From assembly GCF_900090205.1 (NCBI RefSeq), contig NZ_LT607802.1, positions 3,489,923 to 3,553,922 on the forward strand: a DNA stretch of 64,000 nt, written 5' to 3'. The notes beneath the pieces were generated by a model. It had not been told where the DNA came from. It saw only the letters and a list, made by a program, of their open reading frames with translations, and searched no databases. The translations under genes and the position numbers were made by a program. Below are positions 3,134 through 56,932 of this stretch, piece by piece. This DNA comes from Vogesella sp. LIG4. Lineage in GTDB: Bacteria > Pseudomonadota > Gammaproteobacteria > Burkholderiales > Chromobacteriaceae. Position 1 is the stretch's first letter. Each line of letters begins with the position of its first letter.

Positions 3134-3739
3134 ATGAACCCCACCCCCGGCTGGCGCGAACGCTGGCAGAACTTCAGCACCCGCCTGCCGGCGCTGCACC
3201 GCGACGGCATCAGCCTGCCCGCTTCCCTGCTGCTGTCGCAGCTGCAGAAAGCGCTGGACGGCGACGAGCTGGCGGTGGAGGGGCTGCAATTCGACGATAC
3301 CGGCGGCGAGCTACGCCTGCTGCTGAAAAAGCCCGGCCAGCGCCTGCTGATCATCCAGTTCCGCTTTGCACCGGTGGACTGGCCGGCGCGGCGCATCGAT
3401 GTCGAATTCAGCCTGCAGGGCGAGAATCGTGACCGCAGCCTGGCCGGCCGTGCGCTGGGCAAGCTGGTGCAGCTGGGGCTGGAAAGCGGCCTGGGCCTGC
3501 GCGCACTGCAAAGGTTGGCCGCACCGCTGGGCTGGCTGGAACTGCAGGACGGCCGCGCCAGCGTGCACCTGCAGCAGGTGCCGTCCGTCGCCCGCTGGCT
3601 GCAGCAGCCACTGCTGGGCAAGCCGCTGGCCGAGCGGCTGCAGCTGGCTGCCATCGACACCCGCGACAATGCACTGCGCCTGCGGCTGGCGCGCATCTCT
3701 AACCCAGCGGCGCAAAATCCGGACAGTACAGCCGCATAA
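3134..3739 (+). CDS. Hypothetical protein, 201 aa
   Basis: Not recognised. A soluble Leu/Arg-rich protein with no signal peptide, alternating short beta-like segments (ELRLLLKKPGQRLLIIQFRF) and amphipathic helices. The start codon follows GAGGTG supplied by the end of the repeat element upstream. The gene contains one in-frame copy of the dispersed motif (AAGGTTGGCCGCA at 3511-3523, read as RLAA). It ends before a strong terminator. Single-gene transcription unit by position. Coding reality is supported by the Shine-Dalgarno site, the terminator and typical codon use. Confidence 0.7.
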   Translation: MNPTPGWRERWQNFSTRLPALHRDGISLPASLLLSQLQKALDGDELAVEGLQFDDTGGELRLLLKKPGQRLLIIQFRFAPVDWPARRIDVEFSLQGENRDRSLAGRALGKLVQLGLESGLGLRALQRLAAPLGWLELQDGRASVHLQQVPSVARWLQQPLLGKPLAERLQLAAIDTRDNALRLRLARISNPAAQNPDSTAA

Positions 3740-3782
3740 AAACAGACAACAAACCGGCCGCCGGTTTACCAGGCCACTAAAG

Positions 3783-3805
3783 GCCGCACCACGGTGCGGC
3801 TTTTT
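3783..3805 (+). terminator. Rho-independent terminator
   Basis: An 8-bp stem GCCGCACC/GGTGCGGC with a 2-base loop is followed by TTTTT. It lies 43 bases after the stop of the gene at 3134-3739. Confidence 0.85.
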
Positions 3806-3857
3806 GCTTTCATGCCGTCTCTGGCTACAGTGATAGAAACCGCACGCGGAGGCTTAC

Positions 3858-4142
3858 ATGCTGCACAAACGCATCCTGACACTATGGCCGGCCTTCATTA
3901 CCGCCGCCCTGGCCACCACCTGCTTCTTCTCGGTGTTCGACCCGTACGAGCTGACGCTGCACGGCGCGCGGCTGTTCGAGGACAAGCTCACCGCCTACTC
4001 GGTATTCTTCCTGTGCGCCTGGGGCTTTGGCACCCTCAACGCGGCGCTGATCCTGTTCCTGGCACGCGAGCAGCGCGACATCAACGGCTTCGAGCTGCCA
4101 CCGGTGGACCCGGACGCCAAGTACGACCCGGAACCGGACTAG
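3858..4142 (+). CDS. Small inner-membrane protein, 94 aa
   Basis: Two hydrophobic segments (about residues 8-26 and 46-68) with a short loop and an acidic, Pro-rich tail (PPVDPDAKYDPEPD) predict a two-pass inner-membrane protein. An AGGCTT-like site lies ahead of the ATG. The function is unknown. It is convergent with the cupin gene, and a perfect 14-base inverted repeat of the dispersed motif sits between the two stops, where it probably ends transcription from both sides. Confidence 0.75.
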   Translation: MLHKRILTLWPAFITAALATTCFFSVFDPYELTLHGARLFEDKLTAYSVFFLCAWGFGTLNAALILFLAREQRDINGFELPPVDPDAKYDPEPD

Positions 4143-4155
4143 CCGACACAAAACA

Positions 4156-4187
4156 ATGCGGCCAACCTTGTGCAAGGTTGGCCGCAT
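4156..4187. repeat. Inverted pair of the dispersed 14-mer, acting as a hairpin
   Basis: ATGCGGCCAACCTT (4156-4169) and AAGGTTGGCCGCAT (4174-4187) are perfect complements separated by GTGC. The 14-bp stem with 4-base loop lies between two convergent genes. No T-run follows, so it would end transcripts as a stable hairpin rather than as a classical intrinsic terminator. Confidence 0.85.
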
Positions 4188-6252: not shown

Positions 6253-7425
6253 TCACACGAGGCGTTGCTGCAAGGCGGACAGCCACCGCTCGCAGGCGGC
6301 CAGCTGCGCCAGCGTCACGAACTCGTCCGGCCGATGCGCCTGCACGATGGAACCCGGCCCGCACACCACGCAGGCAATGCCGGCTTCGGCAAAACGCCCG
6401 GCTTCGGTGGTGTAGGCCACCGCATCGCCCCCCTGGCAGGCGCACAGCGCCGCCACGTGCTGGCGGATTTCGCAACCGTCTTCCGACTGGAACGGCGGGC
6501 AGTTCACCAGCGGCTCGAAGCTGATGTCCGCCTCCGGCGCCACCTGGCGCATCTCTTGCAGCAGGTTGGCCGCATAGTCGCGCACCGAGCTGACGAAACG
6601 CTCGTGCTGGTCGCCCGGCAGCCAGCGTACCTCGAACACGAATTCACAACTTTTGGGCACGATGTTGGCCGCATTGCCGCCGCTGATCAGCCCGGTCTGC
6701 AAGGTGGTGAACGGCACGTCATACAAGGGGTGGCGATTGCCGAACGAGGCCTCGGTATCGGCCAGTTTGCGGATGTGGGTGATCAGCCGCGCCGCGTACT
6801 CGATGGCATTCACCCCCTGCGGCGTCAGCGAGGAATGTGCCGCCCGCCCCTGCACGCTGCAGCGGTAGTGGGCAATGCCCTTGTGTGCCACCACCGGGCG
6901 CATGCCGGTGGGCTCGCCGATGATGCAGCCGGCCACCGGCACCTGCCGCGCCTGCAGGTCGGCAATCAGCCGCCCCACGCCCAGACAGCCGACTTCCTCG
7001 TCGTAGGACAGCGCAATGCCCAGGCTGCGTTGCCAGGACTGCTCGCCCGCCAGCTTCACCCACGCCGGCACCTGCGCCAGCACGCAGGCGATGAAGCCCT
7101 TCATGTCGGCGCTGCCGCGGCCATAGATCTTGCCATCGTGCCGGCTCAGCGCGAACGGCGGGTAGCTCCACAGCTGGCCATCCACCGGCACCACGTCGGT
7201 GTGCCCGGACAGGATGATGGCCGGCAACGCAGCATCGCCGATCGCCGCATACAGATTGGCCTTGCTGCCGTCATCATTGTGCGTCAGCGTGGCACGGATG
7301 CCGTACTCGGCCAGATAGTCGACTACCCAGTCGATCAAGGCCAGATTGGATTCGCGGCTGGTGGTATCGAACGACAGCAGGCGTTCGAGAATGGCAAGCG
7401 TGGCGGCAGCAGGCTGAGCAGACAT
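6253..7425 (-). CDS. argE: Acetylornithine deacetylase
   Basis: An M20-family di-zinc hydrolase that removes acetate from N2-acetylornithine in arginine biosynthesis (cytoplasm). The metal and catalytic residues are visible: His75 and Asp77 in SGHTDVVPVDG, Asp107 in GRGSADMKGF and Glu143-Glu144 in YDEEVGCLG. The dimerisation domain contains GRAAHSS. At 390 aa the length fits ArgE. The start at 7425 (MSAQPAAATL) follows GGAT. Upstream in-frame codons are low-complexity and run towards the SRP RNA. Two copies of the dispersed motif core lie inside (6562-6575, 6664-6674). A related M20 peptidase is possible but less likely. Confidence 0.88.
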   Translation of the reverse strand: MSAQPAAATLAILERLLSFDTTSRESNLALIDWVVDYLAEYGIRATLTHNDDGSKANLYAAIGDAALPAIILSGHTDVVPVDGQLWSYPPFALSRHDGKIYGRGSADMKGFIACVLAQVPAWVKLAGEQSWQRSLGIALSYDEEVGCLGVGRLIADLQARQVPVAGCIIGEPTGMRPVVAHKGIAHYRCSVQGRAAHSSLTPQGVNAIEYAARLITHIRKLADTEASFGNRHPLYDVPFTTLQTGLISGGNAANIVPKSCEFVFEVRWLPGDQHERFVSSVRDYAANLLQEMRQVAPEADISFEPLVNCPPFQSEDGCEIRQHVAALCACQGGDAVAYTTEAGRFAEAGIACVVCGPGSIVQAHRPDEFVTLAQLAACERWLSALQQRLV

Positions 7426-10787: not shown

Positions 10788-11683
10788 TGGACGCGCACTG
10801 GCAAGGCCTGATCGACGCCTTCGACGACCAGCTGAGGTTGGCCGCACGCAGCGAACACACCCGCCTGGCCTACCGGCGCGACCTCACCCGGCTGGCCGAA
10901 CTGCTGGCCGACACGCCGCCGGCAGAAGTGGACGGCCCGCGCATCCAGCGCGCACTGGGGCAGTTGCGCCGCGAGGAGCTGTCGCCGCGCACCCTGGCGC
11001 GCATGCTGTCCACCTGGCGCAGCCTGTACGACTGGATGCTGCGCCGCGACTGGGTTGCGGCCAACCCTTGTGCCGGCCTGCGCGCACCGCGCGCCGGCAA
11101 ACGCCTGCCCAAGGTGTTGAGCGTGGATGGCGCCATGCAGCTGCTGGACAGCACGCCGGAAGACGAACACGACGTCCGCGACCAGGCTATCTTCGAACTG
11201 ATGTACTCCTCCGGCCTGCGGCTATCGGAAACCGTGGCGCTGAACCTGGCCGACCTGGATCTCGATACCGCGCTGGTGAAGGTGCACGGCAAGGGCAACC
11301 GCGAACGCATCCTGCCGGTGGGCAAGCAGGCACTGGCAGCACTGCGGCGCTGGTTGCCACTGCGCCAGCCGGCGGAAGGCGAAGAGGCGCTGTTCCTGTC
11401 GCGGCGCGGCACGCGTATCAGCAGCCGGCAACTGGCGCGCCGGCTGGAAAGCTGGGCACTGCGCAGCGGCAGCGAGCAGCACGTGCACCCGCACATGCTG
11501 CGCCACTCCTTTGCCAGCCACATGCTGCAATCCTCCGGCGACCTGCGCGCGGTGCAGGAGCTGCTCGGCCACGCCAACCTGGCCACCACGCAGATCTACA
11601 CCAGCCTGGACTTCCAGCACCTGGCCAAGGTCTACGACGACGCCCACCCGCGAGCACGCAAAAAAACCGCTGGCGACGAGTAG
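10787..11683 (+). CDS. xerC: Chromosome-dimer resolvase XerC
   Basis: A tyrosine recombinase (298 aa) that, with XerD, resolves chromosome dimers at dif. The SAM-like N-terminal core-binding domain is followed by the catalytic domain with Arg145 (SSGLRLSE), Lys169 (HGKGN), His236 and Arg239 (HMLRH), His262 (LGHAN) and the nucleophile Tyr271 (QIYTSLD). The C-terminus DFQHLAKVYDDAHPRA is nearly that of E. coli XerC, which decides against XerD. It is coupled to the MoxR-type gene and ends at a strong bidirectional terminator. It contains two motif copies (10835-10846, 11056-11069). Confidence 0.92.
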   Translation: MDAHWQGLIDAFDDQLRLAARSEHTRLAYRRDLTRLAELLADTPPAEVDGPRIQRALGQLRREELSPRTLARMLSTWRSLYDWMLRRDWVAANPCAGLRAPRAGKRLPKVLSVDGAMQLLDSTPEDEHDVRDQAIFELMYSSGLRLSETVALNLADLDLDTALVKVHGKGNRERILPVGKQALAALRRWLPLRQPAEGEEALFLSRRGTRISSRQLARRLESWALRSGSEQHVHPHMLRHSFASHMLQSSGDLRAVQELLGHANLATTQIYTSLDFQHLAKVYDDAHPRARKKTAGDE

Positions 11684-11726: not shown

Positions 11727-11741
11727 ACGTTGGCCGCAAGC

Positions 11742-12689
11742 TCAGCGCGACTTCACGAACGGAATGCCGATCGCCTTCGGCGCCACCGCACGACCCATGA
11801 AGCCGGCCAGCAGCACCACGGTCAGCACGTAGGGAATCGCCTGGATGAAGGCATCCGGAATGCTGCCGATCAGCGGCAGCGGCACGCCCTGCAGGCGGAT
11901 CTGGATGGCATCGGTAAAGGCGAACAGCAGGCAGCCGGATACCGCCGCCCACGGCCGCCACTTGCCGAAGATCAGCGCCGCCAGCGCCAGGTAGCCCTTG
12001 CCGGCAGTCATGTCCTGGATGAAGGCGCCGGTCTGCGCCAGCACCAGGTAGGCACCGGCCACGCCACACAGCGCGCCGCTGATCAGCTGGGCGATGTAAC
12101 GCACCCCCTTGACGCTGATACCGGCGGCATCGGCGGCATGCGGGTTTTCGCCCACCGCGCGCAGGCGCAGGCCGAAGCGGCTCTGGTACACCACCCAGCT
12201 CACCACGATGATCAGGGCCATCGCCAGGTACACCAGCACATTGTGGCCGAGGAAGGTTTTCAGCGCCGTGCTCTGCGCGATGGTATCGGCAAACGGCAGC
12301 TGCACCGCGGTGAAGCGCGCGTCGTCGTCCAGCGTCGGCGTGCGACCGCCCTGCTGGAACCAGGCCAGCGCCAGCACCGGCGTCACGCCGGACACCATCA
12401 TGTTGATGGCCACCGCGGAAATCAGCTGGTTGCCGTTGTAGCCGATCGACACCACGCCATGCAGCAGCGCCACCAGCATGCCCACCGCAATGCCGGCGCC
12501 CAGCCCGGCCCACGGCGAATGCGCCAGGTAGGCAACGCAGGCGGCGGCAAACGCTGCGGCCAACATCTTGCCCTCCAACGCCAGATCGACAATACCGGAA
12601 CGCTCGGAGAACAGGCCGGCCAGCGCCGCCAGCACCAGCGGGGTGCTCACGCGCAGCGTGGCATCCAGCACGCTAAAGAAAATCTCCAT
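11742..12689 (-). CDS. Nucleoside-type ABC transporter permease 2
   Basis: An inner-membrane permease of the BPD_transp_2 (LivM/RbsC-like) family, 315 aa with about 8-9 hydrophobic segments. It contains the family loop GENPHAADAAGISV and the conserved sequence ALIFGKWRPW. It is the last gene of a four-gene minus-strand operon (binding protein, ATPase, permease 1, permease 2). Its start lies one base beyond the stop of permease 1. With the BMP/PnrA-like binding protein the substrate is probably a purine or other nucleoside (family inference). Confidence 0.88.
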   Translation of the reverse strand: MEIFFSVLDATLRVSTPLVLAALAGLFSERSGIVDLALEGKMLAAAFAAACVAYLAHSPWAGLGAGIAVGMLVALLHGVVSIGYNGNQLISAVAINMMVSGVTPVLALAWFQQGGRTPTLDDDARFTAVQLPFADTIAQSTALKTFLGHNVLVYLAMALIIVVSWVVYQSRFGLRLRAVGENPHAADAAGISVKGVRYIAQLISGALCGVAGAYLVLAQTGAFIQDMTAGKGYLALAALIFGKWRPWAAVSGCLLFAFTDAIQIRLQGVPLPLIGSIPDAFIQAIPYVLTVVLLAGFMGRAVAPKAIGIPFVKSR

Positions 12690-13794: not shown

Positions 13795-15314
13795 TTATGC
13801 CCCCCCATCAACAGACCCAGCGAGGTAGTGGTGGCCTCTGCCGCCGACAGCTCGCCGGAAATCGCGCCGGCATTCATTACGATGATGCGGTCGCTCAAAG
13901 CCAGAATTTCGTCCAGTTCCACCGACACCAGCAGCAGCGCCTTGCCTTCGTCGCGCAGCTGCAGCAGGCGTTTGTGGATGAACTCGATGGCACCAATGTC
14001 CACGCCGCGCGTGGGCTGGCCGATCAGCATCAGCTCCGGGTTGGCGTGGATTTCGCGCGCCAGGATCACCTTTTGCTGGTTGCCGCCGGAAAACAGGCCG
14101 ATGCGGCGATGCGTCAGCGCCGGGCGCACGTCGAACTCGCGGATGAAGCGGCGGCAGCGCTCGACGATGGCCTTGCGGCTGAACAGCCCGCCACGGCGAA
14201 TGGACGGATCGTTGTGATAACCCAGGATGGCGTTCTCGAAGGTGGAGAAGTCCTTCACCAGCCCTTCGCGCGAACGGTCTTCCGGCACGTGGGCAATGCC
14301 CAGCCTGCGGTAGGCGGCCGCCTTGGGTTCACGGGTCTTCAGCGTGCTCAGTTCGGTGCCATTGAAGTTCACCGAGCCCGAGGTGGCCTCGCGCATGCCG
14401 GACAGCACCTCCAGCAGTTCGGACTGGCCGTTGCCGGACACGCCGGCGATGCCGACGATCTCGCCGGCGCGCAGCTCGAAACCGATGTCTTTGAGCAGCG
14501 CCACGCCGCGCTCGTCCACCAGGTTCAGGCCGGACACCGCCAGCACCGTCTTGCCCGGTCTGGCCGGCGCCTTGTCCAGCTGCAGGTTCACCTTGCGGCC
14601 AACCATCAGGTCGGCCAGGTCTTCCTTGCCCACCTCGGCGGTCACCACCTGGCCCACCACCTCGCCGGCACGCATCACGGTGACGGTATCGGTGATGTCC
14701 AGCACTTCGCGCAGCTTGTGGGTGATCAGGATCACCGTCTTGCCCTGCTGCTTCAGCAGCCGCAGGATGCGGAACAGGTCATCGGCTTCCTGCGGCGTCA
14801 GCACCGCGGTCGGCTCGTCCAGGATCAGCACGTCGGCGCCGCGGTACAGCGCCTTGAGGATTTCCACCCGCTGCTGGCTGCCCACGCCCAGCTCGCCCAC
14901 GATGGCGTCCGGGTCGACCTGCAGGCCGTAGTCGCGGTTGAGGTCCGCCAGGTGGCGGCGCGCGGCGGCCAGGCTGGCATCCAGGCGCACACCCTCTTCC
15001 GCGCCCAGCACGATGTTTTCCAGCACGGTGAACGGGTCCACCAGCATGAAGTGCTGATGCACCATGCCGATGCCCTTGGCGATCGCATCCTGGCTGGAGC
15101 GGATGCGCTCCTCCTTGCCGTTGATGCGAATGGTTCCGGAATCCGCGTGATAGTAGCCGTAGAGGATACTCATCAGGGTGGATTTGCCCGCTCCGTTTTC
15201 ACCGATGACGCCGTGAATGGAGCCCTTGCGGATGCCGAAGCTGATGTTCTTGTTGGCGTGCACTTCGCCGAAGTGCTTGTTGACGCCTATGAGCTCGATG
15301 GCTAATTCGGCCAT
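13791..15314 (-). CDS. Nucleoside-type ABC transporter ATPase (double domain)
   Basis: A 507-aa duplicated ABC ATPase of the RbsA/NupA type. Domain 1 has Walker A GENGAGKST and Walker B LILDEPTAVLTP. Domain 2 has the degenerate P-loop GVSGNGQSE, signature FSGGNQQK and the NPELMLIGQPTRGVD region. It energises import by the two downstream permeases. I start at 15314 (MAELAIELIGVNKHFGEV). Longer in-frame starts lack family similarity. A stem-loop sits between this gene and the binding-protein gene. Confidence 0.9.
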   Translation of the reverse strand: MAELAIELIGVNKHFGEVHANKNISFGIRKGSIHGVIGENGAGKSTLMSILYGYYHADSGTIRINGKEERIRSSQDAIAKGIGMVHQHFMLVDPFTVLENIVLGAEEGVRLDASLAAARRHLADLNRDYGLQVDPDAIVGELGVGSQQRVEILKALYRGADVLILDEPTAVLTPQEADDLFRILRLLKQQGKTVILITHKLREVLDITDTVTVMRAGEVVGQVVTAEVGKEDLADLMVGRKVNLQLDKAPARPGKTVLAVSGLNLVDERGVALLKDIGFELRAGEIVGIAGVSGNGQSELLEVLSGMREATSGSVNFNGTELSTLKTREPKAAAYRRLGIAHVPEDRSREGLVKDFSTFENAILGYHNDPSIRRGGLFSRKAIVERCRRFIREFDVRPALTHRRIGLFSGGNQQKVILAREIHANPELMLIGQPTRGVDIGAIEFIHKRLLQLRDEGKALLLVSVELDEILALSDRIIVMNAGAISGELSAAEATTTSLGLLMGGHK

Positions 15315-15443: not shown

Positions 15444-16448
15444 TTATTTCACCGGGCAGCTGTTGGCCGCACGGTAATCGACAACCTTCACCTTGCCGGA
15501 AATGATGTCTTTCTTGGCCTGGTTGATCTTGCCTTCCATCGCCTTGCTGATCAGCTTGCGGTTGTTGTCGTCCAGCGCCCAGTCCACGCCGCCTTCCTTC
15601 AGGCCCATGGTCACCACACCCGACTTCCAGGTGCCGTTCTTGCCGGCCATGAACAGGTTGTACACGGCGTTATCCACGCGCTTGAGCATGGAGGTCAGCA
15701 CGAAGCCCGGGAACAGGTGGTTCTGGTTGGAATCCACGCCGATGCCCAGCTTGTTCTTGTCCTTGGCGGCCTGCAGCACGCCCATGCCGGTGCCGCCGGC
15801 GGCGTGGAATACCACGTCAACGCCACGGTCGAACTGGCTGCGCGCCAGCTCGCCGCCGCGGGCCGGGTCATTGAAGGCCTGCGGGGTGGTGCCGGTCATG
15901 TTGGAGATTACTTCCACCTTGCTGTCGGCAGCCTTGGCACCCTGCGCGTAGCCGCAATCGAAGGCGCGGATCAGCGGCACGTCCATGCCACCCACGAAGC
16001 CCACCTTGTGCGACTTGGAGGCCATGGCGGCAGCCATGCCCACCAGGTAGGAGCCTTCCTGCTCCTTGAACAGCACGGACTGCACGTTGTCGCCCTTGGC
16101 CACATCGTCAACGATGGCGAATTTCACCTTCGGGAACTCGGTGGCAACGGTCTGCACAGCCTGGGTGAAGGAGAAGCCGACGGCCACGATCAGGTCAACG
16201 TTCTTGCGCGCCAGGTTGCGCAGCACCTGTTCCTTCTGAGCCTCGTTGGCGATCTGGGCTTCGCGGTAGGCCACGCCGGTGGCTTTCTTGAAGCGCTCGG
16301 CGCCGGTGTAGGCGGCTTCGTTGAAGCTCTTGTCGAACTTGCCGGCCTGGTCGTACACCACGGCCGGGGTGAAGGCGAAGCTGGAGGAGGCCGCCACCAT
16401 CATGGCAGCAGCGGCAATGGCGAAGCCCCGTTTCTTGGCATTCAGCAT
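15444..16448 (-). CDS. BMP-family nucleoside-binding protein
   Basis: A 334-aa periplasmic solute-binding protein of the basic membrane protein (PnrA/Med) family. The N-terminal signal MLNAKKRGFAIAAAAMMVAASSSFA lacks a lipobox Cys, so it is a soluble periplasmic protein. Family features include YDQAGKFDKSFNEAAY, IVAVGFSFTQAV and VVFHAAGGTGMGVLQAA. The family binds purine nucleosides. First gene of the operon, with a TATAAT on its strand about 150 bases upstream. Confidence 0.9.
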   Translation of the reverse strand: MLNAKKRGFAIAAAAMMVAASSSFAFTPAVVYDQAGKFDKSFNEAAYTGAERFKKATGVAYREAQIANEAQKEQVLRNLARKNVDLIVAVGFSFTQAVQTVATEFPKVKFAIVDDVAKGDNVQSVLFKEQEGSYLVGMAAAMASKSHKVGFVGGMDVPLIRAFDCGYAQGAKAADSKVEVISNMTGTTPQAFNDPARGGELARSQFDRGVDVVFHAAGGTGMGVLQAAKDKNKLGIGVDSNQNHLFPGFVLTSMLKRVDNAVYNLFMAGKNGTWKSGVVTMGLKEGGVDWALDDNNRKLISKAMEGKINQAKKDIISGKVKVVDYRAANSCPVK

Positions 16449-16694: not shown

Positions 16695-17204
16695 TTATTG
16701 TGCCGGCAGCTGTTGCAACAGCGTCGACAACAGCGCGCACACCGACTGCTCGCGCACCGCGTGGCGGTCGCCGGCAAAGTGTTGCGTCCATGTCAAAGGA
16801 CTGGCCAGTGCCGCGCCGGCAATCGCAAAGCACACCATGCCCACCGGCTTGGCCGCCGTACCGCCGCCGGGGCCGGCCACGCCGGATACCGCCAGCGCCC
16901 AGTCGGCGCCGGCCAGTCGCAGTGCCCCCTCGGCCATGGCAGCCGCCACCGGCTCACTGACGGCACCATGCTGTTGCAGCAGCGCCGCCGGCACGCCCAG
17001 CACACGCTGCTTGATCTCGTCGCTATAGCTCACCACCGCCATGTCGAACCAGCCGGAGCTGCCGGCGATCTCGGTGATGGCCGCGGCCACGCCGCCGCCG
17101 GTGCAGGATTCCGCCGTGGTGACACGTTGGCCGCATGCGGCCAACCTTGTACCCAGCTGCGCTGCCAGCTGCCATTTATCCATGCCAGCGCACCCGTTAT
17201 CCAT
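16695..17204 (-). CDS. pncC: Nicotinamide-nucleotide amidase (CinA C-terminal type)
   Basis: A single-domain CinA/PncC protein (about 165 aa), which deamidates nicotinamide mononucleotide to nicotinate mononucleotide in NAD recycling. Family motifs are TTAESCTGGGVAAAIT, WFDMAVVSYSDEIK, GAVSEPVAAAMAEGAL, AVSGVAGPGGG and KPVGMVCFAI. The start at 17204 has GGAG 7 bases upstream and overlaps the pgi stop by 8 bases. An alternative Met is at 17183. The coding sequence holds a palindromic double copy of the dispersed motif near its 5' end, encoding [10 protein letters not shown]. Confidence 0.87.
   Translation of the reverse strand: MDNGCAGMDKWQLAAQLGTRLAACGQRVTTAESCTGGGVAAAITEIAGSSGWFDMAVVSYSDEIKQRVLGVPAALLQQHGAVSEPVAAAMAEGALRLAGADWALAVSGVAGPGGGTAAKPVGMVCFAIAGAALASPLTWTQHFAGDRHAVREQSVCALLSTLLQQLPAQ
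17126..17148. repeat. Head-to-head pair of the dispersed motif inside a gene
   Basis: GTTGGCCGCAT and ATGCGGCCAACCTT overlap at their AT, forming a near-perfect palindrome inside pncC. The full 14-mer is on the minus strand at 17135-17148. Unlike the other pairs it is coding, not intergenic. Confidence 0.8.
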
Positions 17205-18846
17205 GCTTGCGCTCCAGGTAATGCCGCACCAGGCCGGCGGTGGAAGCATCGTGCCGCCCGCCGCCACCGGCATCCATTTCCGTCAGCAGCCGCTTGGCCA
17301 GCTGCTTGCCGTATTCCACGCCCCACTGGTCGAAAGAGTTCACCCCCCAGATTGCGCCCTGCACGAACACCTTGTGCTCGTACAGCGCCAGCAGCATGCC
17401 CAGGCTGTACGGCGTTACCTGGTCCAGCGCAATGGTGTTGGACGGCTGGTTACCGGGAAACAGTTTCTGCGGCAGCAGCATGTCCAGCTCGTCGCCACTG
17501 ACGCCGCCCAGCTCCTGCAACACCTCGGCCTCGCTCTTGCCGCGCATCAGCGCCTCGGCCTGGGCGAAGCAATTGGCCACCAGCACCTGGTGCTGGCCAT
17601 CCAGCGGGTAGTGGCTGTTCATCGGCACGATGAAATCGCAGGGCACCAGCCGCGTACCCTGGTGCAGCAGCTGGAAGAAGGCATGCTGACTGTTGACGCC
17701 CTCCTCGCCCCAGATCACCGGGCCGGTATCGAAGTCCAGCCGCTCGCCGCAGCGCCCCACCCGCTTGCCGTTGGACTCCATGTCCAGCTGCTGGATGTGC
17801 GCCGGCAGCCGGCGCAGGCCGTGGTCGTACGGCATGATGGCGTGGGTGTGCGCACCATAGAAGGTGTTGTACCAGATGCCGATCAGCCCCAGCAGCACCG
17901 GCATGTTGCGGGCGAACGGGGTTTCGAAGAAGTGGCGGTCCATGCGCGCGCCGCCAGCCAGGAACTGGCGGAAGTTGTCGGCGCCGATGGCCAGCACCAC
18001 CGGCAGGCCGATGGCCGACCACACCGAATAGCGGCCGCCCACCCAGTCCCAGAAACCGAACATGTGCGCGGTATCGATGCCGAAGGCCTGCACCGCGGCG
18101 GCATTGGTGGACACTGCCACGAAATGCCGCGGCACCGCCGCCTCGCCGGCGGCCGCCACCAGCCAGCGCCGCGCGGCCTGCGCATTGAGCAGCGTCTCCG
18201 GCGTGGTAAACGATTTGGAGGCGACGATGAACAGCGTGCTGGCCGGGTCGCACTGCGCCAGCACCTGCGCCAGATGCTGGCCATCGACGTTGGAGACGAA
18301 ATCCACCGCCAGCCCCGGCTGGGCGTACGGCTTCAATGCTTCGGCCACCATCAGCGGCCCCAGGTCGGAGCCGCCGATGCCGATATTCACCACCCGACGG
18401 ATGCGCTGGCCGTCATGCCCCAGCCAGGCACCGCTGCGCACCCGCTCGGCAAAGTCGCATACGCGCTGCAGCTCGGCATGCACCTGCGGCACCACGTCCA
18501 CGCCATCCAGCGGCAGCGTGGCGTCCGGCGGCAGCCGCAACGCGGTGTGCAGCACCGCGCGGCCTTCGCTGACATTGATGCGCTCGCCGCTGCGCATCCA
18601 TTGCAGCCACTGCCCAAGGTTGGCCGCATCGGCCAGCTCCAGCAGCAATTCCAGCGTGCGGTCAGTGATGCGGTTCTTGGAGTAGTCCAGCAGCAGGCCG
18701 TCCAGCTCCAGCGAGTAGCGGTCAAAACGCAGCGCATCCTGCGCGAACAGCTCGCGCATATGCACATGACGGGTAGCGCGCTGGTGCTGGTGCAGCCGCG
18801 CCCACACCGGCGATTCGTTGATGGGGTGGAGTCGTTCGCTGATCAT
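17197..18846 (-). CDS. pgi: Glucose-6-phosphate isomerase
   Basis: Interconverts glucose-6-phosphate and fructose-6-phosphate in glycolysis and gluconeogenesis (cytoplasm). At 549 aa it matches the E. coli enzyme. The sugar-phosphate and catalytic segments are present: NIGIGGSDLGPLM, VASKSFTTPETLLNA, GGRYSVWSAIGLP and, near the end, SFDQWGVEYGKQLA. It overlaps pncC by 8 bases, so the two are one unit. A full copy of the dispersed 14-mer lies inside at 18616-18629. Confidence 0.95.
   Translation of the reverse strand: MISERLHPINESPVWARLHQHQRATRHVHMRELFAQDALRFDRYSLELDGLLLDYSKNRITDRTLELLLELADAANLGQWLQWMRSGERINVSEGRAVLHTALRLPPDATLPLDGVDVVPQVHAELQRVCDFAERVRSGAWLGHDGQRIRRVVNIGIGGSDLGPLMVAEALKPYAQPGLAVDFVSNVDGQHLAQVLAQCDPASTLFIVASKSFTTPETLLNAQAARRWLVAAAGEAAVPRHFVAVSTNAAAVQAFGIDTAHMFGFWDWVGGRYSVWSAIGLPVVLAIGADNFRQFLAGGARMDRHFFETPFARNMPVLLGLIGIWYNTFYGAHTHAIMPYDHGLRRLPAHIQQLDMESNGKRVGRCGERLDFDTGPVIWGEEGVNSQHAFFQLLHQGTRLVPCDFIVPMNSHYPLDGQHQVLVANCFAQAEALMRGKSEAEVLQELGGVSGDELDMLLPQKLFPGNQPSNTIALDQVTPYSLGMLLALYEHKVFVQGAIWGVNSFDQWGVEYGKQLAKRLLTEMDAGGGGRHDASTAGLVRHYLERKHG
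18616..18629 (+). repeat. Single exact copy of the dispersed 14-mer
   Basis: AAGGTTGGCCGCAT within pgi (antisense to the gene), read there as part of MRPT-frame codons of the opposite strand's DAANLG. Confidence 0.7.
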
Positions 18847-19673: not shown

Positions 19674-20918
19674 ATGAATGCATTTACCTGGAGCCTGCTG
19701 CTGGCGCTGCTGCTGAACAGCTGGCTGCGCTGGTGGTTGGCCGCACGCCACATCAGCCATATCCGCCGCCACCGCGGCGCCGTACCCACCGCCTTTGCCG
19801 ACAGCATCACGCTGGAGCAACACCAGAAGGCCGCCGACTACACCTGCGCCCGCGTACGCGTAGCCATGGTGTCCAGCCTGCTGGACGCCGTGCTGCTGCT
19901 GGCCTTCACCCTGGGCGGCGGCATCGAATTCGCCAGCCGCCTGGCCAGCAGCCTGCTGGGCGCCGGCATGCCGGCACAGCTGGCCACCGTTGGCCTGTGC
20001 ACGCTGGTGATGAGCGCCATCAGCCTGCCCCTGTCGCTGTATAGCACCTTCGTGGTGGAACGCCGCTTCGGCTTCAGCAAGGTGGATGCGCGGCTGTTCA
20101 TCAGCGACCTTGCCAAGGGCACCGTGCTATCGCTATTGATCGGCACGCCGATACTGGCGGCGGTGCTGTGGCTGATCCAGCATGGCGGCCAGTATTTCTG
20201 GCTGTGGACCTGGCTGACCTGGTGCAGCTTCAGCCTGCTGATGGTGTGGGCCTACCCCACGCTGATCGCGCCGCGCTTCAACCGCTTCAGCCCGCTGGCC
20301 GACAGCGAGCTGCTGCAACGCATCAACCAGCTGCTGGCGCGTTGCGGCTTTGCCAGCAACGGCGTGTTCGTGATGGATGGCTCGCGCCGCTCCAGCCACG
20401 GCAACGCCTACTTCACCGGCCTCGGCAAATCCAAGCGCATCGTGTTCTTCGACACCCTGCTGGAGCAGCTGAGCCCGGAGGAAATCGAGGCGGTATTGGC
20501 GCATGAACTTGGCCACTTCCACCACGGCCATATCCGCAGCCGCATCCTGCTGACCTTCGCCAGCTCGCTGCTGCTACTGTGGCTGTTCGCGCAATGCCTG
20601 TACCTGCCGGCGTTCTACCTGGGCCTGGGCAGCAGCGCCATGACGCCGGCCACCGGCCTGCTGCTGTTCATGCTGTGCATGCCGGTGTTCACCTTCATCC
20701 TGCACCCGCTGTCCAGCATGCTGTCGCGCCGCCACGAATACCAGGCCGACGACTTTGCAGCCAGCCACAGCAACGCCGCCGCACTGGTGAGCGCGCTGAC
20801 CAAACTCTATCGTGACAATGCCAGCACCCTGACCCCGGACCCGCTGCATTCCACCTTCTACGACTCACACCCACCGGCGAGCCTGCGCATCGCCCACCTG
20901 CAAGGAAGCACACCATGA
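19674..20918 (+). CDS. M48 family integral-membrane zinc metallopeptidase
   Basis: A 414-aa membrane protease of the Ste24/CAAX-protease-1 type. Several hydrophobic helices precede the catalytic motif HELGH (residues 277-281 in [13 protein letters not shown]). The third zinc ligand is Glu355 in [11 protein letters not shown]. It probably degrades misfolded membrane proteins. The start at 19674 follows the weak TTG three bases earlier. The stop overlaps the next gene by 4 bases. Motif copy GGTTGGCCGCA at 19735-19745 encodes part of WWLAARH. Confidence 0.9.
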
Positions 20919-26903: not shown

Positions 26904-26922
26904 ACCATGAAATGACCTCGCC

Positions 26923-34329: not shown

Positions 34330-34334
34330 ACCGT

Positions 34335-34983: not shown

Positions 34984-35015
34984 AATAGCGAGCAGAAAAA
35001 CCGGCCCGTTGCCGC

Positions 35016-39402: not shown

Positions 39403-39428
39403 AAGGTTGGCCGCATGCGGCCAACCTT
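39403..39428. repeat. Head-to-head pair of the dispersed 14-mer
   Basis: Two exact copies, AAGGTTGGCCGCAT (39403-39416) and ATGCGGCCAACCTT (39415-39428), overlap by AT and form a perfect 26-base palindrome one base after the mnmC stop. Confidence 0.88.
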
Positions 39429-42170: not shown

Positions 42171-42203
42171 ATGCGGCCAACCTGCCAAGGTTGGCCGCAT
42201 TTT
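42171..42203 (+). terminator. Terminator made of an inverted pair of the dispersed motif
   Basis: ATGCGGCCAACCT (42171-42183) and AGGTTGGCCGCAT (42188-42200) are perfect 13-base complements with a GCCA loop, followed by TTT. The right arm belongs to a full 14-mer (42187-42200). It lies 19 bases after the clpB stop. Confidence 0.88.
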
Positions 42204-42397: not shown

Positions 42398-44380
42398 ATG
42401 GATCAACTGCTCGACAGGCTGACCACACGTCAGCCGGATGAATCCCCCGTTGCCGCGCTCACCGCGCTGCTGGCCCAGCTGCGCCCGGACGATGCCGGCG
42501 ATTTCGTGCAGGCCACCAGCAACCTGCGCGCGCTCACCTATCTGCTCGGCCGCAACGCCGAGCACCGCGCCGGCCTGCGCCGCGCGCTGATCGACCTGAT
42601 GGCGCAGTCGCGCCAGGTTCAGCTGTACACCGACACCGGCCTGCTCTCCAACGAAACCTTCGCCCAGGTGATCAAGCGCCGCATCGGCGAACGCCTGCTG
42701 CCGCCGGCGCGCTCCAGCAGCCACCTGGCCGACCAGTTCGGGCTGATCTTCAGCGGCAAGAAAGACTATCGCTGGGTAGCCTCGGTGGAAACCGCCGTGT
42801 GGCAGCAGCTGTGGCAGGCGCTGGCCTGGCAGGAGGAAACCGCCGCTGCGGCCAACCCTACCCGGCTGCAGCTGCTGGAGGCGGTGCAGGTGCTGACGGC
42901 GCGCATCTCCGCCATCGGCCTGGAGCCGGAGCTGGTGCGCGTCTACCCGGACATCGAACGCTTCGAGTCGCCGTTCCTGCACCTGTCGGCGGAGGCGCTG
43001 CAGTTCGTGGAATCGGCACGCGCCGCCATGACCGACCCGGCACTGCAGGCCGAGGACGACCGGCAGATGCTGGTGCTGCTGGAGCAGTGCGAGCAGCTGA
43101 TCTCCCGCCTGCGCAAGGTAGCCGGCGAGAGTGGCGTGTCGATCAGCCTCACCTACCACCTGCTGCGGCTGGAGCAGCACATCGAGCGGCTGCGCAGCGT
43201 GCTGCGCCTGCTGGACCCTGGCCTCGGCCCGGCCACCGACGGCACGCTGTTCACGCTGCTGGCCGAGCTGGTGCGTGCCGAGAACCGCAAGTACAGCGTG
43301 CGCGACGTGTTCACCGGCACCACCGAGCTGCTGGCGCGCCAGGTCACCGAGCATGCCGGCCGCCACGGCGAGCATTACATTGCCGAGAACCGTAGCGAAT
43401 GGAAGGACATGGCGCGGGCGGCAATGGGCGCCGGCCTGATCGTCGGCTTCATGGCGCTGTTCAAGCTGCTGCTGGCCAAGCTGCATCTGCCACTGATCTG
43501 GGAAGCGCTGGCCTTTGGCCTCAACTACGCACTGGGCTTCATGCTGATCCACGTGCTGCACTTCACCGTGGCCACCAAGCAGCCGGCCATGACCGCGGCG
43601 CGCATTGCCGCGGTGATCCACCAGGGCAACGGCAAGCCGCATATGCGCGAGCTGGCCGAACTGGTGGCCAAGGTGGCGCGCACCCAGCTGGTGGCCATTC
43701 TCGGCAACGTGCTGGTGGCGATACCGGTGGCGTGGCTGATTGCGGTGGGCTGGAAGGCCGTTACCGGCGCGCCGGTGATCGACGTGGCCAAGGCCGGTCA
43801 CCTGCTGGCCGACCAGAACCCGGTGGGCAGCCTGGCACTGCTGCACGCCGCCATTGCCGGGGTGTATCTATTCCTGGCCGGACTCATCGCCGGCTACTAC
43901 GACAACAAGGCCATCTACCGGCAGATACCGCAAAGGTTGGCCGCATTGCCGTGGCTGAACCGCCTGCTGGGCGAAAAGCGCACCCGGCGGCTGGCGCACT
44001 ACGTGGAACACAATCTGGGCGGCCTGGCCGGCAATTTCTACTTCGGCATGCTGCTGGGCATCACCGGCACGGTGGGCTTTCTGCTGGGGCTGCCGCTGGA
44101 CATCCGCCACATCACCTTCTCCTCGGCCTACCTGTCGTACGCGGCGGTGAGCTACGACTACCAGATGCCGCTGCAGCTGATACTGCCAGCGGTGGGCGGC
44201 GTGGTGCTGATCGGCATGACCAACCTGCTGGTGAGCTTCAACCTGGCGCTCTGGGTGGCACTGCGCTCGCGCAAGCTGCGGGGCCACGATGCCCTGCCGC
44301 TGCTGCCGGCGGTGCTGAAGCTGGCCATCAGCAAGCCGCGCGACTTCCTGATTCCACCGCCGCAGCGCCACGACCCCTGA
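42398..44380 (+). CDS. Gcr-type 'site-specific recombinase' membrane protein
   Basis: A 660-aa protein of the family annotated as site-specific recombinase Gcr (first named from the gonococcus). The N-terminal ~340 residues are helical and soluble. The C-terminal half has about six strongly hydrophobic segments (GLIVGFMALFKLLLAKL; LGFMLIHVLHFTVATKQPAM; LLGITGTVGFLLGLPLDIRHITFSS). None of the tyrosine- or serine-recombinase motifs is present, so I regard the inherited name as doubtful and the protein as an inner-membrane protein of unknown function. It contains two motif copies (42847-42859, 43933-43946). Confidence 0.82.
   Translation: MDQLLDRLTTRQPDESPVAALTALLAQLRPDDAGDFVQATSNLRALTYLLGRNAEHRAGLRRALIDLMAQSRQVQLYTDTGLLSNETFAQVIKRRIGERLLPPARSSSHLADQFGLIFSGKKDYRWVASVETAVWQQLWQALAWQEETAAAANPTRLQLLEAVQVLTARISAIGLEPELVRVYPDIERFESPFLHLSAEALQFVESARAAMTDPALQAEDDRQMLVLLEQCEQLISRLRKVAGESGVSISLTYHLLRLEQHIERLRSVLRLLDPGLGPATDGTLFTLLAELVRAENRKYSVRDVFTGTTELLARQVTEHAGRHGEHYIAENRSEWKDMARAAMGAGLIVGFMALFKLLLAKLHLPLIWEALAFGLNYALGFMLIHVLHFTVATKQPAMTAARIAAVIHQGNGKPHMRELAELVAKVARTQLVAILGNVLVAIPVAWLIAVGWKAVTGAPVIDVAKAGHLLADQNPVGSLALLHAAIAGVYLFLAGLIAGYYDNKAIYRQIPQRLAALPWLNRLLGEKRTRRLAHYVEHNLGGLAGNFYFGMLLGITGTVGFLLGLPLDIRHITFSSAYLSYAAVSYDYQMPLQLILPAVGGVVLIGMTNLLVSFNLALWVALRSRKLRGHDALPLLPAVLKLAISKPRDFLIPPPQRHDP
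43933..43946 (+). repeat. Exact copy of the dispersed 14-mer in a gene
   Basis: AAGGTTGGCCGCAT, in frame, encoding RLAA of PQRLAALPWL. Confidence 0.7.
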
Positions 44381-49511: not shown

Positions 49512-49522
49512 GTGCGGCCAAC

Positions 49523-50489: not shown

Positions 50490-50552
50490 ATTTGCCGCCG
50501 CGCCAGGGCGAGCCTCTCCGAGACAGTGACTCCGGGCACCCTGCGGCCAACA

Positions 50553-51737: not shown

Positions 51738-52715
51738 TCACCGTTGCCGGTAGTGTTTTTTCAGCCGCAACACGCACAACAGGTCGTAGGCGATGTGTGC
51801 GGCCGCCAGGGCGGTGATTTCGCTCTGGTCGAACGGCGGTGCCACTTCCACGATGTCCATGCCAACCAGGTCGAGCGCCCCCAGGCCGCGCACGATGGTG
51901 AGCGCCTGCGCCGTGCTGAGCCCGCCAGCCACCGGCGTACCGGTACCGGGTGCGAAGGCGGGGTCGAGACAATCGATATCGAAGGTCAGGTAGGCGGGTG
52001 CATCACCAACGATGGCCAGGATTTTTTCCAGCGTCTTTTTCGGCCCATCCAGCTGCACCGACTCGGCATCCAGCACCTTGATGCCCATGAAGTCGTCGTT
52101 CCAGGTACGGATGCCTACCTGCACCGAGTGCTCGACATCCACCAGGCCGTCCTTGACTGCCTTGTAGAACATGCTGCCGTGGTTGAGCGAATGCGGGCTG
52201 TCATCCGGCCAAGTGTCGCAATGGGCGTCGAAGTGGATCAGCGCCACCGGCCGGCCGAGTTTTTCCACGTGTGCGGCCAACAGTGGGTAGGTGATGTAGT
52301 GGTCGCCACCGAAAGTAAGCATCCGCGCACCGGATGCCAGAATGTGGCGCGCGTGGGCAACGATGCTTTCGTGGATGGTGTGCGGGTTGTGCGCGTCGAA
52401 CCAGCAATCGCCGTAATCGATCACCGCCAGGTCGTCGAAGGGGTCGAAACCCCAGGGGTAGCCTTTCAGATCGCTCAGCGTGACCGAAGCGGCACGCACG
52501 GCTGCCGGCCCCAGGCGCGCACCTGGGCGAAAGGTGGTGGCCAGGTCCAGCGGCACCCCCGACACCACCACGTCGGCCCCCGTCAGGTCGCGGCTGTAAT
52601 TGCGGCGCAAAAACGAGAGCACACCCGCATAGGTGTTTTCCACTGCGCCGCCACACAGCTCGCGGCGGCGGATCGCCCCGTCACCGAATATCGTTTCATC
52701 CATCTTGTCGTCCAT
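51738..52715 (-). CDS. Agmatinase / guanidinobutyrase family ureohydrolase
   Basis: A 325-aa Mn-dependent ureohydrolase that releases urea from a guanidino compound. Metal ligands are in TFGGDHYIT, HFDAHCDTW and FDIDCLDPAFAPGTGTP. It could be agmatinase (speB, giving putrescine) or guanidinobutyrase (gbuA). The divergent LysR regulator next door matches the gbuA-gbuR layout of Pseudomonas. GAGGAGGAG precedes the ATG at 52715. An in-frame ATG at 52736 is less well placed. The adjacent polyamine-binding protein supports a polyamine/guanidine role. Confidence 0.9.
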   Translation of the reverse strand: MDDKMDETIFGDGAIRRRELCGGAVENTYAGVLSFLRRNYSRDLTGADVVVSGVPLDLATTFRPGARLGPAAVRAASVTLSDLKGYPWGFDPFDDLAVIDYGDCWFDAHNPHTIHESIVAHARHILASGARMLTFGGDHYITYPLLAAHVEKLGRPVALIHFDAHCDTWPDDSPHSLNHGSMFYKAVKDGLVDVEHSVQVGIRTWNDDFMGIKVLDAESVQLDGPKKTLEKILAIVGDAPAYLTFDIDCLDPAFAPGTGTPVAGGLSTAQALTIVRGLGALDLVGMDIVEVAPPFDQSEITALAAAHIAYDLLCVLRLKKHYRQR

Positions 52716-53709: not shown

Positions 53710-54025
53710 CCCGGTAGAGCATCAACACAGGATGCCCAGCAAAACGCCCATGCTGGAGCTATGTAAACTTTTAATGGGTTACTCGCCTGTGTAACAGGGC
53801 TCAGCGGCAGTGCTATCGGCGTGTCATCGGCCACTGCAGGCTGCCGCCCCATATGGGCCGAGCGTCCATGCAGGACCACAGACTTGCTGCTTGCACCAAA
53901 GCCCACGCTTGGCTATTCGCCTGCATAAGGACAAATGGCAGCTTCCATAGTGGAAGCCGCCATTAAAGGTGAACCAGAGAAAATCTACTTCTATCTACCA
54001 GCCTTGCGGCCAACTCTTTATCCAG
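53710..54025. terminator. 316-bp gap with a minus-strand terminator at 53931-53963
   Basis: ATGGCAGCTTCCA and TGGAAGCCGCCAT (53935-53947, 53951-53963; one mismatch, TAG loop) with AAA to the left end transcription of the GntR gene on the minus strand. The remaining sequence (53710-53930) shows no ORF with a start signal and no repeat I can name. Confidence 0.75.
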
Positions 54026-54778: not shown

Positions 54779-54992
54779 CTGGACTACTCCAATGTTTCAA
54801 TATGGTGACAAATCTATCACGGAACAATGATTTCTCAAAGACATGTCAAGGTAATGACAGCGCTATTCAACTGGTAACCCCACACAGAAAACCACACCAG
54901 AAATTTTCATGCATTTTCTTGCAAATCAATATGTTGTGCAAAATAAAATCTTGCCGACTCCATTTTTTACGGCCTGGAAAAACACAACACAA

Positions 54993-55022
54993 TTGACAGT
55001 TGGAAAGCCTCTCGACTATGGT
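54993..55022 (+). promoter_or_regulatory. Promoter of the organophosphate operon
   Basis: TTGACA (54993-54998), 18-base spacer, TATGGT (55017-55022). The -35 is perfect and the -10 matches 4 of 6. GGAG follows at 9 bases before the ATG at 55064. The rest of the 285-base region (54779-54992) is AT-rich, without a gene. Confidence 0.6.
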
Positions 55023-55063
55023 TCGCCTGCAGTTCAAATCTGGACTAGACCAAAGGAGTAATC

Positions 55064-56113
55064 ATGAAGAATTTGCTGGTTACCGTTGTATCCGGGGGGC
55101 TTTGCCTCAGCGTGGCACCGGCCAAGGCCGAGAACCTCAATGTGCTGATCCAGGCCGCCAAGAAAGAAGGCGCCGTTTATAGCGTGGGCATGCCGGACGA
55201 CTGGGCCAACTGGAAAGACACCTGGGCGCAGATTACCCAGAAATATGGTCTGAGTCACCGCGATACCGATCTGAGTTCGGCAGAAGAGCTGGCCAAGTTC
55301 GATGCGGAAAAAACCAACGCTACGGCAGATATCGGCGACGTTGGTCACACTTTCGGCCCGGTGGCACTGCAAAAAGGGCTGACCCAGCCGTACAAGCCCA
55401 GCACCTGGGGTGATATTCCGGCCTGGGCCAAGGACAAGGATGGACAATGGGTACTGGCCTATACCGGCACCATTTCCTTCATTACCAATAACCAGCTGGT
55501 GAAAGAGCCGCCCAAATCCTGGGCCGACCTGCTCAAAGGCAAATACAAGGTCACGCTGGGTGCCGTCGGGGTATCCGCTCGCGCCAACAGCGCGGTACTG
55601 GCGGCCGCGCTGGCCCGAGGCGGCGACGAGAAAAACCTGAAACCCGCACTGGAGCTCTTCAGCCAGCTGGCCAAGCAGGGCCGCCTGTCGCTGATCGACC
55701 CGAGCCTGGCCAACCTGGAAAAAGGCGAGATCGAAGTGGGCATCCTGTGGGACTTCACCTCGCTGAGCTACCGCGACCGTATCGACAGCAAGCGCTTTAC
55801 GGTAAGCATCCCGACCGACGGCTCGGTGACTACCGGCTACACCACCATCATCAACAAGTACGCCAAGCACCCGAATGCGGCCAAGCTGGTGCGTGAATAT
55901 GTGCTGAGCGATGCCGGCCAGGTCAACCTGGCACGCGGCTATGCCCGGCCGATTCGCGGCAATGTAACGATTCCGGCAGACGTGCAGGCCAAGTTGCTGC
56001 CAGCCAGCCAGTACCGCGTCGCCAAGCCGATCCGGGATTTTGCTGCGTGGGAAGAGTCAACCAAAAACCTGCCGCGCCAATGGCAGGAAACGGTCATGGT
56101 GAACATGCAGTAA
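55064..56113 (+). CDS. Periplasmic binding protein of an organophosphate/phosphonate-type ABC transporter
   Basis: A 349-aa extracellular solute-binding protein of the FbpA/PhnS-like family. Signal MKNLLVTVVSGGLCLSVAPAKA, then ENLNVLIQAAKKEGAVYSVGMPDDWANWKDTW. Phosphate- or anion-contacting candidates lie in YTGTISFITNN and VGVSARANSAV. It opens an operon with two single-domain permeases and an ATPase (the set used by 2-aminoethylphosphonate-type importers) plus hydrolases. The ligand is inferred only. Confidence 0.88.
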   Translation: MKNLLVTVVSGGLCLSVAPAKAENLNVLIQAAKKEGAVYSVGMPDDWANWKDTWAQITQKYGLSHRDTDLSSAEELAKFDAEKTNATADIGDVGHTFGPVALQKGLTQPYKPSTWGDIPAWAKDKDGQWVLAYTGTISFITNNQLVKEPPKSWADLLKGKYKVTLGAVGVSARANSAVLAAALARGGDEKNLKPALELFSQLAKQGRLSLIDPSLANLEKGEIEVGILWDFTSLSYRDRIDSKRFTVSIPTDGSVTTGYTTIINKYAKHPNAAKLVREYVLSDAGQVNLARGYARPIRGNVTIPADVQAKLLPASQYRVAKPIRDFAAWEESTKNLPRQWQETVMVNMQ

Positions 56114-56122
56114 GGAGCGGTC

Positions 56123-56932
56123 ATGTCCAGCAAGGTCATCCTGGTATTGATCGACGGCCTGGCCTGGCAGGCGGCCCATGACGGCATGGGCTACCTGCAG
56201 GGCTTGTGCGAGGCGGGTCAGGCCGCTCTCTATCAGCTGCGGTGCGAACTGCCATCGCTGTCGCGCCCGTTGTACGAGTGCATTCTCAGTGGTGTGGCAC
56301 CTGTGCACAGCGGCATCGTGCACAACTACGCCGGCCCGGCATCCTGCCAGCAAAGCATTTTCCACCTGGCACGCGATGCCGGCCTGACCACCGCGGCAGC
56401 GGCTTATCACTGGATCGCCGAACTGTACAACCGGGCACCGTACGTTGCCGTGCGCGACCGTTTTACCGACGACAGCCAGTTGCCAATCCAGCATGGCGTG
56501 TTTTACCACGGTGACGACTACCCGGATGACCACTTGCTGCTGGACGCCGAAGCCATGCGCTTGAAACACCAGCCGGACTTGCTATTGGTGCACCCGATGG
56601 AGACCGATGTGGCTGGACATCGCCACGGCTACGGCAGTGCGCAGTACCGCAATTCGGCACGCCGCTTTGACAAGCGGCTGGCCGAGTACCTGCCCGGATG
56701 GTTGGCCGCAGGCTATCAGGTGCTGGTCACCAGTGACCACGGCATGAACCACGACGGCAGCCATGGCGGCCTGCTGCCGGAAGAGCGGCTGGTGCCACTG
56801 TTCGTGATCGGCCAGCGTTTCAGCAAATTGCCGGACATCCAAGTGCAACAGACCGAGCTATGCGGCCTTGTCGCCGACCTGCTGGGGCTGATGCACACCA
56901 AACCGCGCCACCCGGAGTTACTTTTGCCATGA
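56123..56932 (+). CDS. Cytoplasmic alkaline-phosphatase-superfamily hydrolase
   Basis: A 269-aa metal-dependent hydrolase of the alkaline phosphatase / nucleotide pyrophosphatase-phosphodiesterase superfamily. Metal ligands: Asp in VILVLIDGLAW, Asp and His in METDVAGHRHG, Asp-His in TSDHGMNHDG. A Ser/Thr nucleophile is expected in ELPSLSRPLYECILSG. It has no signal peptide, so it acts in the cytoplasm on the imported compound, probably cleaving a phosphoester or C-P bond (phosphonoacetate hydrolase belongs here too). It sits between binding protein and permease and overlaps the permease start. Confidence 0.85.
   Translation: MSSKVILVLIDGLAWQAAHDGMGYLQGLCEAGQAALYQLRCELPSLSRPLYECILSGVAPVHSGIVHNYAGPASCQQSIFHLARDAGLTTAAAAYHWIAELYNRAPYVAVRDRFTDDSQLPIQHGVFYHGDDYPDDHLLLDAEAMRLKHQPDLLLVHPMETDVAGHRHGYGSAQYRNSARRFDKRLAEYLPGWLAAGYQVLVTSDHGMNHDGSHGGLLPEERLVPLFVIGQRFSKLPDIQVQQTELCGLVADLLGLMHTKPRHPELLLP

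Follow-up and report, generated by a model that had tools for sequence, protein, structure and literature searches.

Uptake sequences have been described in two bacterial families, the Pasteurellaceae and the Neisseriaceae. In the DNA uptake sequences (DUS) of the Neisseriaceae, CTG at positions +6 to +8 is invariant and A stands at +10 in every dialect, and inverted pairs of the Neisseria DUS are described at terminators; no obvious DUS was reported for five related genomes outside today's Neisseriaceae, those of Laribacter, Lutiella, Pseudogulbenkiania and two Chromobacterium, from which the same study concluded that the DUS system postdates the split from C. violaceum (PMC3630211). ComP, the minor pilin that is the DUS receptor of Neisseria, has as its hallmark a DD region that two disulfides close (PMC4906244), a feature described as indispensable for DUS-specific binding (PMC12616744). 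Here, a stretch of 64 kb from the genome of Vogesella sp. LIG4 (the window) was analysed for a dispersed word, GTTGGCCGCA, which is very likely an uptake sequence and one of several undescribed DUS dialects of the Chromobacteriaceae.

Enrichment of the repeated word

The source genome (G000; G and g labels denote the genomes and genera compared) is a single contig of 4,147,242 bases. Word statistics are based on 464 kb of sequence, made up of the window and of 20 segments of 20 kb placed at regular intervals; this sample represents about 11% of the genome and has a guanine plus cytosine content of 63.5%, close to the 63% or so assumed in an earlier note on the window. The 9-mer core, TTGGCCGCA, has 36 copies in the window, compared with a mean of 1.88 and a largest count of 6 in 100 dinucleotide shuffles, and the copies are divided 18:18 between the strands. 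The earlier note, which had put the core at about 35 copies with a near-even strand balance, listed 35 of them with starts accurate to within one or two bases, and missed the one at 55876 on the complementary strand. This copy has the form CTTGGCCGCA (55876..55885), the core lacking the leading G; the other 35 of the 36 sites are the full 10-mer GTTGGCCGCA. The longer 14-mer was counted again as exact nine times in the window, and the whole genome contains 193 copies of it (100:93 by strand) and none of its reversed control. The 10-mer is present 2,895 times in the genome (1,458 and 1,437 by strand) and its reversed control 8 times, so that the genome-wide count that the earlier note had proposed as a check lies far above expectation.

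In the 464-kb sample, GTTGGCCGCA has 329 copies, whereas an order-3 model predicts 3.6 (masking of the motif gives 2.6-3.6), and the words of 8 to 12 bases with the strongest over-representation are parts or extensions of it. Taken together, its 30 one-mismatch variants have 111 copies, at the background expectation of 94-108; there is no cloud of such variants except at +10, where G (22 copies vs 4-5) and C (16 vs 6-8) exceed background. Enrichment is thus in practice limited to the exact word, the +10 variants excepted. The favoured flanks are A-3 A-2 G-1 and W+11 G+12 C+13, more strongly so at intergenic sites. The unit is therefore the 10-mer, and the 14-mer that the earlier note had taken for the motif is its preferred context. 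The copies are evenly spread, with 9-19 per 20-kb stretch (mean 14.7, variance 8.9).

Arrangement relative to genes

A simple gene caller, which missed some genes, predicted 381 genes covering 86% of the sample. The 329 sampled sites comprise 215 in genes (0.54 per kb), 113 in intergenic regions (1.71 per kb, about three-fold denser) and one at an edge. Among all intergenic sites, density is highest in convergent gaps (4.79 per kb), intermediate in tandem gaps (1.68) and lowest in divergent gaps (0.39). Neighbouring sites within 60 bp of each other form 36 pairs, all of them inverted and none direct, of which 16 abut exactly to make palindromes of 20 bp; by the same gene caller, 9 pairs are located in genes, 9 in convergent gaps and 16 in tandem gaps, with 2 unclassed. 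Inverted pairs at gene ends, remarked on in the earlier note, are a feature of DUS-class words, and the sample resembles the Neisseria DUS in the inversion of all its close pairs and in the high density at convergent gene ends.

Distribution and dialects

Vogesella is placed in the Chromobacteriaceae, order Neisseriales, by the NCBI taxonomy, and the cytochrome o oxidase subunit I encoded in the window is 97% identical to that of Vogesella facilis, 95% to that of V. oryzae (83% coverage) and 86% to that of Paludibacterium. All 13 Vogesella genomes carry GTTGGCCGCA in 1,871-2,895 copies each, as opposed to 8-58 copies in 48 genomes of nine other Chromobacteriaceae genera. For every other genus, 40-80 kb from each of one or two genomes was scanned anew for sister words, which were then counted genome-wide. 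The word GTTGGCCGAA (GAA dialect) was found in eight genomes (G014, 2,168 copies; G021, 1,851; G017, 1,368; G016, 1,245; G013, 1,104; G022, 893; G023, 579; G029, 183) and GTTGGCCGAG (GAG dialect) in two (G024, 1,940; G015, 1,590), so that 23 of 61 family genomes possess one of the three dialects. No dialect was found in the other 38, including all 19 genomes of g7, 9 of 10 of g6, all 6 of g8 and all 4 of g9. A search of 399 genomes from 159 genera across the order for GTTGGCCGMR singled out only the eight motif genomes of the family that had been drawn (1,304-3,107 copies), the maximum among 386 genomes outside the family being 223.

Several genomes have intermediate counts. A weak excess of GTTGGCCGAG is present in two genomes of the otherwise motif-less g8 (92 copies in G027 and 85 in G036), and families f49 and f23 show a mild excess of GTTGGCCGMR (G284, 139 copies vs 31 of the reversed control) that is far below the motif genomes. 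The low GAA-dialect numbers of G029 and G023, the latter of which also has 165 GAG copies, possibly indicate tag systems that are decaying or young; the pilin of G023 (g3) has the same sequence as one recorded under the name Crenobacter sp. SG2303. By subtraction of counts, the Vogesella genome G006 has about 623 copies of GTTGGCCGCG, compared with about 160-270 in five other Vogesella genomes, which may point to an incipient dialect at +10.

When the nucleotide sequence of G000 is aligned with those of three other Vogesella genomes, the exact word is found at 11 of 18 aligned sites and GCG at 2; a codon alignment with G003 alone offered 2 sites, neither exact. Turnover of coding sites is almost complete between genera. 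G000 coding sites aligned to genomes of other dialects carry GTTGGCCGAA in 2 of 21 cases (G021), GTTGGCCGAG in 1 of 19 (G024) and the dialect word in none of 6 (G016), and none of 3 sites aligned to the motif-less G035 does so. As the matches exceed a chance expectation roughly estimated at 0.02 in 46 aligned sites (at about 0.5 sites per kb), a few sites have probably been converted in place between dialects and most arose anew; in-place replacement as the main mode finds no support in these counts. Such turnover fits a word maintained by continuing biased uptake rather than by inherited positions.

Competence genes and candidate reader

The competence genes named for a search in the earlier note are all present in G000, which encodes ComEC (346.6 bits), DprA (258.4 bits), PilQ (467.5 bits) and minor pilins, one of them ComP-like, as expected of a competent type IV pilus. 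No ComEC match over the cut-off was found in the draft Vogesella genomes G001 and G008, which have the motif in full number, and assembly gaps may account for this. Of 17 N_methyl matches in G000, 16 over the cut-off, one is a minor pilin for which the best match in the PDB, both by sequence and by fold, is Neisseria ComP (5hz7 among the structures). The PDB comparison of three other pilins (L010, L013, L014) and a FimT-like one (L021), drawn from the 16 other N_methyl matches, gave no ComP match. The Pfam family ComP_DUS was rejected as a diagnostic: the PilE-type L010 and L014 score 53.1 and 72.1 bits, above the 23.8 bits of the candidate (cut-off 27.3). A C-terminal cysteine pair, 9-10 residues apart, is conserved in all 28 ComP-like pilins checked; the pilins of G000, G017, G069 and G074 have extra cysteines only in the N-terminal helix, for a total of four in G000. 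This ComP-like minor pilin probably reads the word, perhaps with the assistance of a FimT-like pilin.

Fourteen pilin loci were compared, with genes named by order, similarity and recall. In G000, a FimT/GspH-type gene directly upstream of the ComP-like gene forms with it a stand-alone unit of two genes (L121:9469-10421, which is G000:C1:1558469-1559421), convergent with aroB, aroK and pilQ as named by family search; among the Vogesella genomes compared, homologues of these genes are arranged likewise in G011, and the upstream side is also common to G010. Other minor-pilin sets of G000 lie at 2.15 and 4.145 Mb. In other genera, the ComP-like gene is usually the last of a cluster of fimT-, pilV-, pilW- and pilX-like genes, preceded by a pilY1-like gene in g2, g5 and g10, and the gene upstream of the cluster in g2, g3, g6, g7 and g8 is presumably polA. 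This layout is common to motif-bearing and motif-less genera. In G021, two neighbouring ComP-like/PilE-like pilin genes are found in tandem (L130:9651-10639). Neither the presence of a ComP-like pilin or of ComEC nor a positive net charge of the pilin could be retained as a marker of motif genomes.

Alternative explanations

The high copy number and even spread of the word would suit a signal of chromosome maintenance, such as Chi, an FtsK orienting polar sequence (KOPS), or a nucleoid or division-site motif. Polarity of the Chi or KOPS kind is ruled out by the even distribution of sites in the sample between leading and lagging strands as judged by local GC skew (171 vs 158), which also answers the earlier note's concern about polarity relative to origin and terminus; the greater density between genes, the inversion of every close pair, and the absence of the word from sister genera or its replacement there by other dialects make any maintenance signal very improbable. 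Codon or dipeptide bias could be suspected from the fact that 182 of the 215 coding sites fall in three favoured frames, read as AAN, LAA and VGR, and a site kept by a DNA methylase would be a related possibility. Synonymous shuffling of codons within genes left only 7.2 copies (standard deviation 2.5, maximum 17 in 100 runs) of the 216 counted over the gene sequences, which rules out codon bias, another concern of the earlier note. One-mismatch variants are at background, and restriction sites are as a rule avoided rather than enriched; the two together are given slightly less credence than a maintenance signal. A rho-independent terminator stem multiplied by selection or copying is the least credible of the three: the density is greatest in convergent gaps, and hairpins can form from the 36 inverted pairs, but such pairs account for just 72 of the 329 sites, 215 sites lie inside predicted genes, and the genic sites far exceed the codon-use null. 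Terminators have more likely borrowed the word, as described for the DUS in the available part of PMC3630211. The copies on the two strands of the genome far exceed chance and codon bias, and numbers from the hundreds to the thousands are characteristic of DUS-class words.

A closer alternative retains the uptake sequence and assigns its recognition to the basic FimT-like pilin, or to both pilins at the pilus tip; as a variant of the preferred explanation, with which its probability overlaps, it is less likely than not. The globular part of the FimT-like protein has a net charge of +8 (isoelectric point 9.8), as opposed to +3 for the ComP-like pilin of G000 and values near neutral or negative for most other ComP-like pilins; the two genes stand alone as a pair beside the aroB-aroK-pilQ genes; and Legionella FimT binds DNA (PMC8897410). 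However, no sequence selectivity is reported for Legionella FimT in the available part of that paper, ComP is called the sole minor pilin with established DNA-binding specificity (PMC12616744, in part), and FimT-type genes lie close to the ComP-like gene whether or not a genus bears the motif.

Proposed mechanism and origin

The explanation favoured here with good, though not full, confidence is that GTTGGCCGCA is the Vogesella DNA uptake sequence, one of at least three family dialects together with GTTGGCCGAA and GTTGGCCGAG, and that a pilus-borne ComP-like pilin is its reader. A type IV pilus equipped with this minor pilin, perhaps along with the basic FimT-like pilin, would bind extracellular DNA, and would do so best when the DNA holds the cognate 10-mer, the word thereby promoting uptake. 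Retraction of the pilus would pull the DNA through PilQ, ComEC would transfer a single strand to the cytoplasm, where DprA and RecA would recombine it, a route that is the established competence pathway. Because DNA of kin that has the word would be taken up more often, recombination would spread the word and keep it genome-wide.

Several findings weigh against simple membership of the Neisseriaceae DUS/ComP class. Positions +6 to +8 read CCG rather than CTG in the words of the family, and +10 is A in two dialects and G in the third, whereas the Neisseriaceae DUS has A throughout. No cysteine near beta1 was found in any of the 28 pilins checked, so that the second disulfide of ComP, and with it the four-cysteine arrangement of the DD region, is absent. 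The charge of the ComP-like pilin is not consistently positive, the FimT-like partner being the basic one, and clear orthologues of the ComP-like pilin exist in motif-less genera. Similarity to ComP separates motif from motif-less genomes well with an N. subflava fragment but weakly with an N. meningitidis fragment, and the weak result slightly lowers the confidence in the preferred explanation. The system would work like a DUS, and strict membership of the Neisseriaceae DUS/ComP class fails because the CTG core reads CCG and the second disulfide is absent.

A history consistent with these data is offered tentatively, as one that falls somewhat short of probable. Tagged uptake would predate the split between Neisseriaceae and Chromobacteriaceae, with the last pilin of a fimT-pilV-pilW-pilX operon as the ancestral reader; Neisseria ComP would be a relocated descendant that gained the DD disulfide, and Vogesella would have moved the reader together with FimT beside pilQ. 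Tag and reader would have changed in step by single bases, twice through the same replacement of A by C at +9, and g7 (at a guess, Chromobacterium) and most of g6 (at a guess, Aquitalea) would have lost the tag.

Positions of the sites in the window

Four inverted pairs are found in the window. The pair at 4157..4186 (complementary strand at 4157-4166, forward strand at 4177-4186) lies in a convergent intergenic region according to the simple gene caller, with both sites within exact 14-mers. Abutting sites on the two strands form the 20-bp palindrome GTTGGCCGCATGCGGCCAAC at 17126..17145, in which the complementary-strand site lies within an exact 14-mer, and another 20-bp palindrome at 39406..39425, in which both sites do. 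The pair at 42172..42199 has its complementary-strand site at 42172-42181 and its forward-strand site at 42190-42199, the latter within an exact 14-mer. Single forward-strand sites within exact 14-mers are located at 18619..18628, 25893..25902 and 43936..43945, and other forward-strand sites at 3514..3523, 6565..6574, 6664..6673, 10837..10846, 35094..35103 and 56701..56710; those at 11729..11738, 15462..15471, 19736..19745, 24976..24985 and 35661..35670 are full 10-mers according to the strand counts. On the complementary strand are sites at 891..900, 2199..2208, 11056..11065, 14594..14603, 23664..23673 and 42847..42856, along with those assigned as full 10-mers from the strand counts at 12555..12564, 21459..21468, 35811..35820, 49513..49522, 50542..50551, 52272..52281 and 54005..54014.

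The longest interval without a site in the 464-kb sample spans positions 25903-35093 of the window (9.2 kb, compared with a mean gap of 1.3 kb) and contains genes for homoserine dehydrogenase, aldehyde dehydrogenase, an amino-acid-type ATP-binding cassette transporter, a pyridoxal phosphate enzyme of cysteine/methionine metabolism and two AsnC-type regulators. It is possibly an acquired cluster for amino-acid catabolism.

Comparison with known uptake systems

No prior report of the motif was found in the literature covered, from which subscription journals and most full texts were excluded; among the matches listed, the exact word and its complement returned titles unrelated to uptake. Searches for Vogesella with uptake sequence returned nothing, and with natural transformation only work on resistance genes in food and a snail metagenome. 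One of the words may be listed, not called a DUS, in Table S1D of Frye 2013, which gives over-represented 10-mers of five related genomes.

The earlier note had called the word different from both the Neisseria DUS and the Pasteurellaceae uptake signal sequence (USS); the word does differ, but the statement is probably too strong in view of a suggestive in-register likeness to a Neisseriaceae DUS at 8-9 of 12 positions. When extended by AG and compared without shift to AG-simDUS, the GAA dialect matches at 9 of 12 positions (P 0.003) and the Vogesella word at 8 of 12 (P 0.021), the P values being derived from random 12-mers against five dialects on two strands; this likeness is only suggestive because the comparison was chosen after the fact. 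The step from the GAA to the GCA dialect replaces A by C at +9, a substitution that is also described from kingDUS to king3DUS (PMC3630211).

The existence of dialects in a sister family, and of a ComP homologue still located in a minor-pilin operon, challenges both an origin after the split from C. violaceum and the invariance of CTG. The Chromobacteriaceae dialects provide an outgroup for the joint evolution of tag and reader, and bacteria in which dialect switching can be studied through one pilin. These bacteria are environmental and not bound to a host.

Like the Neisseriaceae DUS, the word has a 10-mer core with an AG extension, about two thousand or more copies distributed over the two strands, sites paired in inverted orientation at gene ends, dialects that differ by one base and track genera, and a ComP-type minor pilin in the same genome. 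Unlike it, the word is another one, with CCG for the CTG core and a variable +10 (A or G), and 16 of 36 Vogesella pairs abut as palindromes of 20 bp, overlapping dyads being known for Simonsiella (PMC3630211, in part); the Chromobacteriaceae pilin lacks the second disulfide of Neisseria ComP. The Pasteurellaceae USS is likewise an abundant, dispersed self-tag on both strands, but it is an unrelated word, and its receptor candidate is ComN/PpdA rather than a ComP-like pilin (PMC12616744, in part). With Legionella, Vogesella shares a FimT/GspH-type gene (PF12019), paired here with a ComP-like gene; no sequence preference is reported for Legionella in the available part of PMC8897410, whereas the Vogesella genome is tagged throughout.

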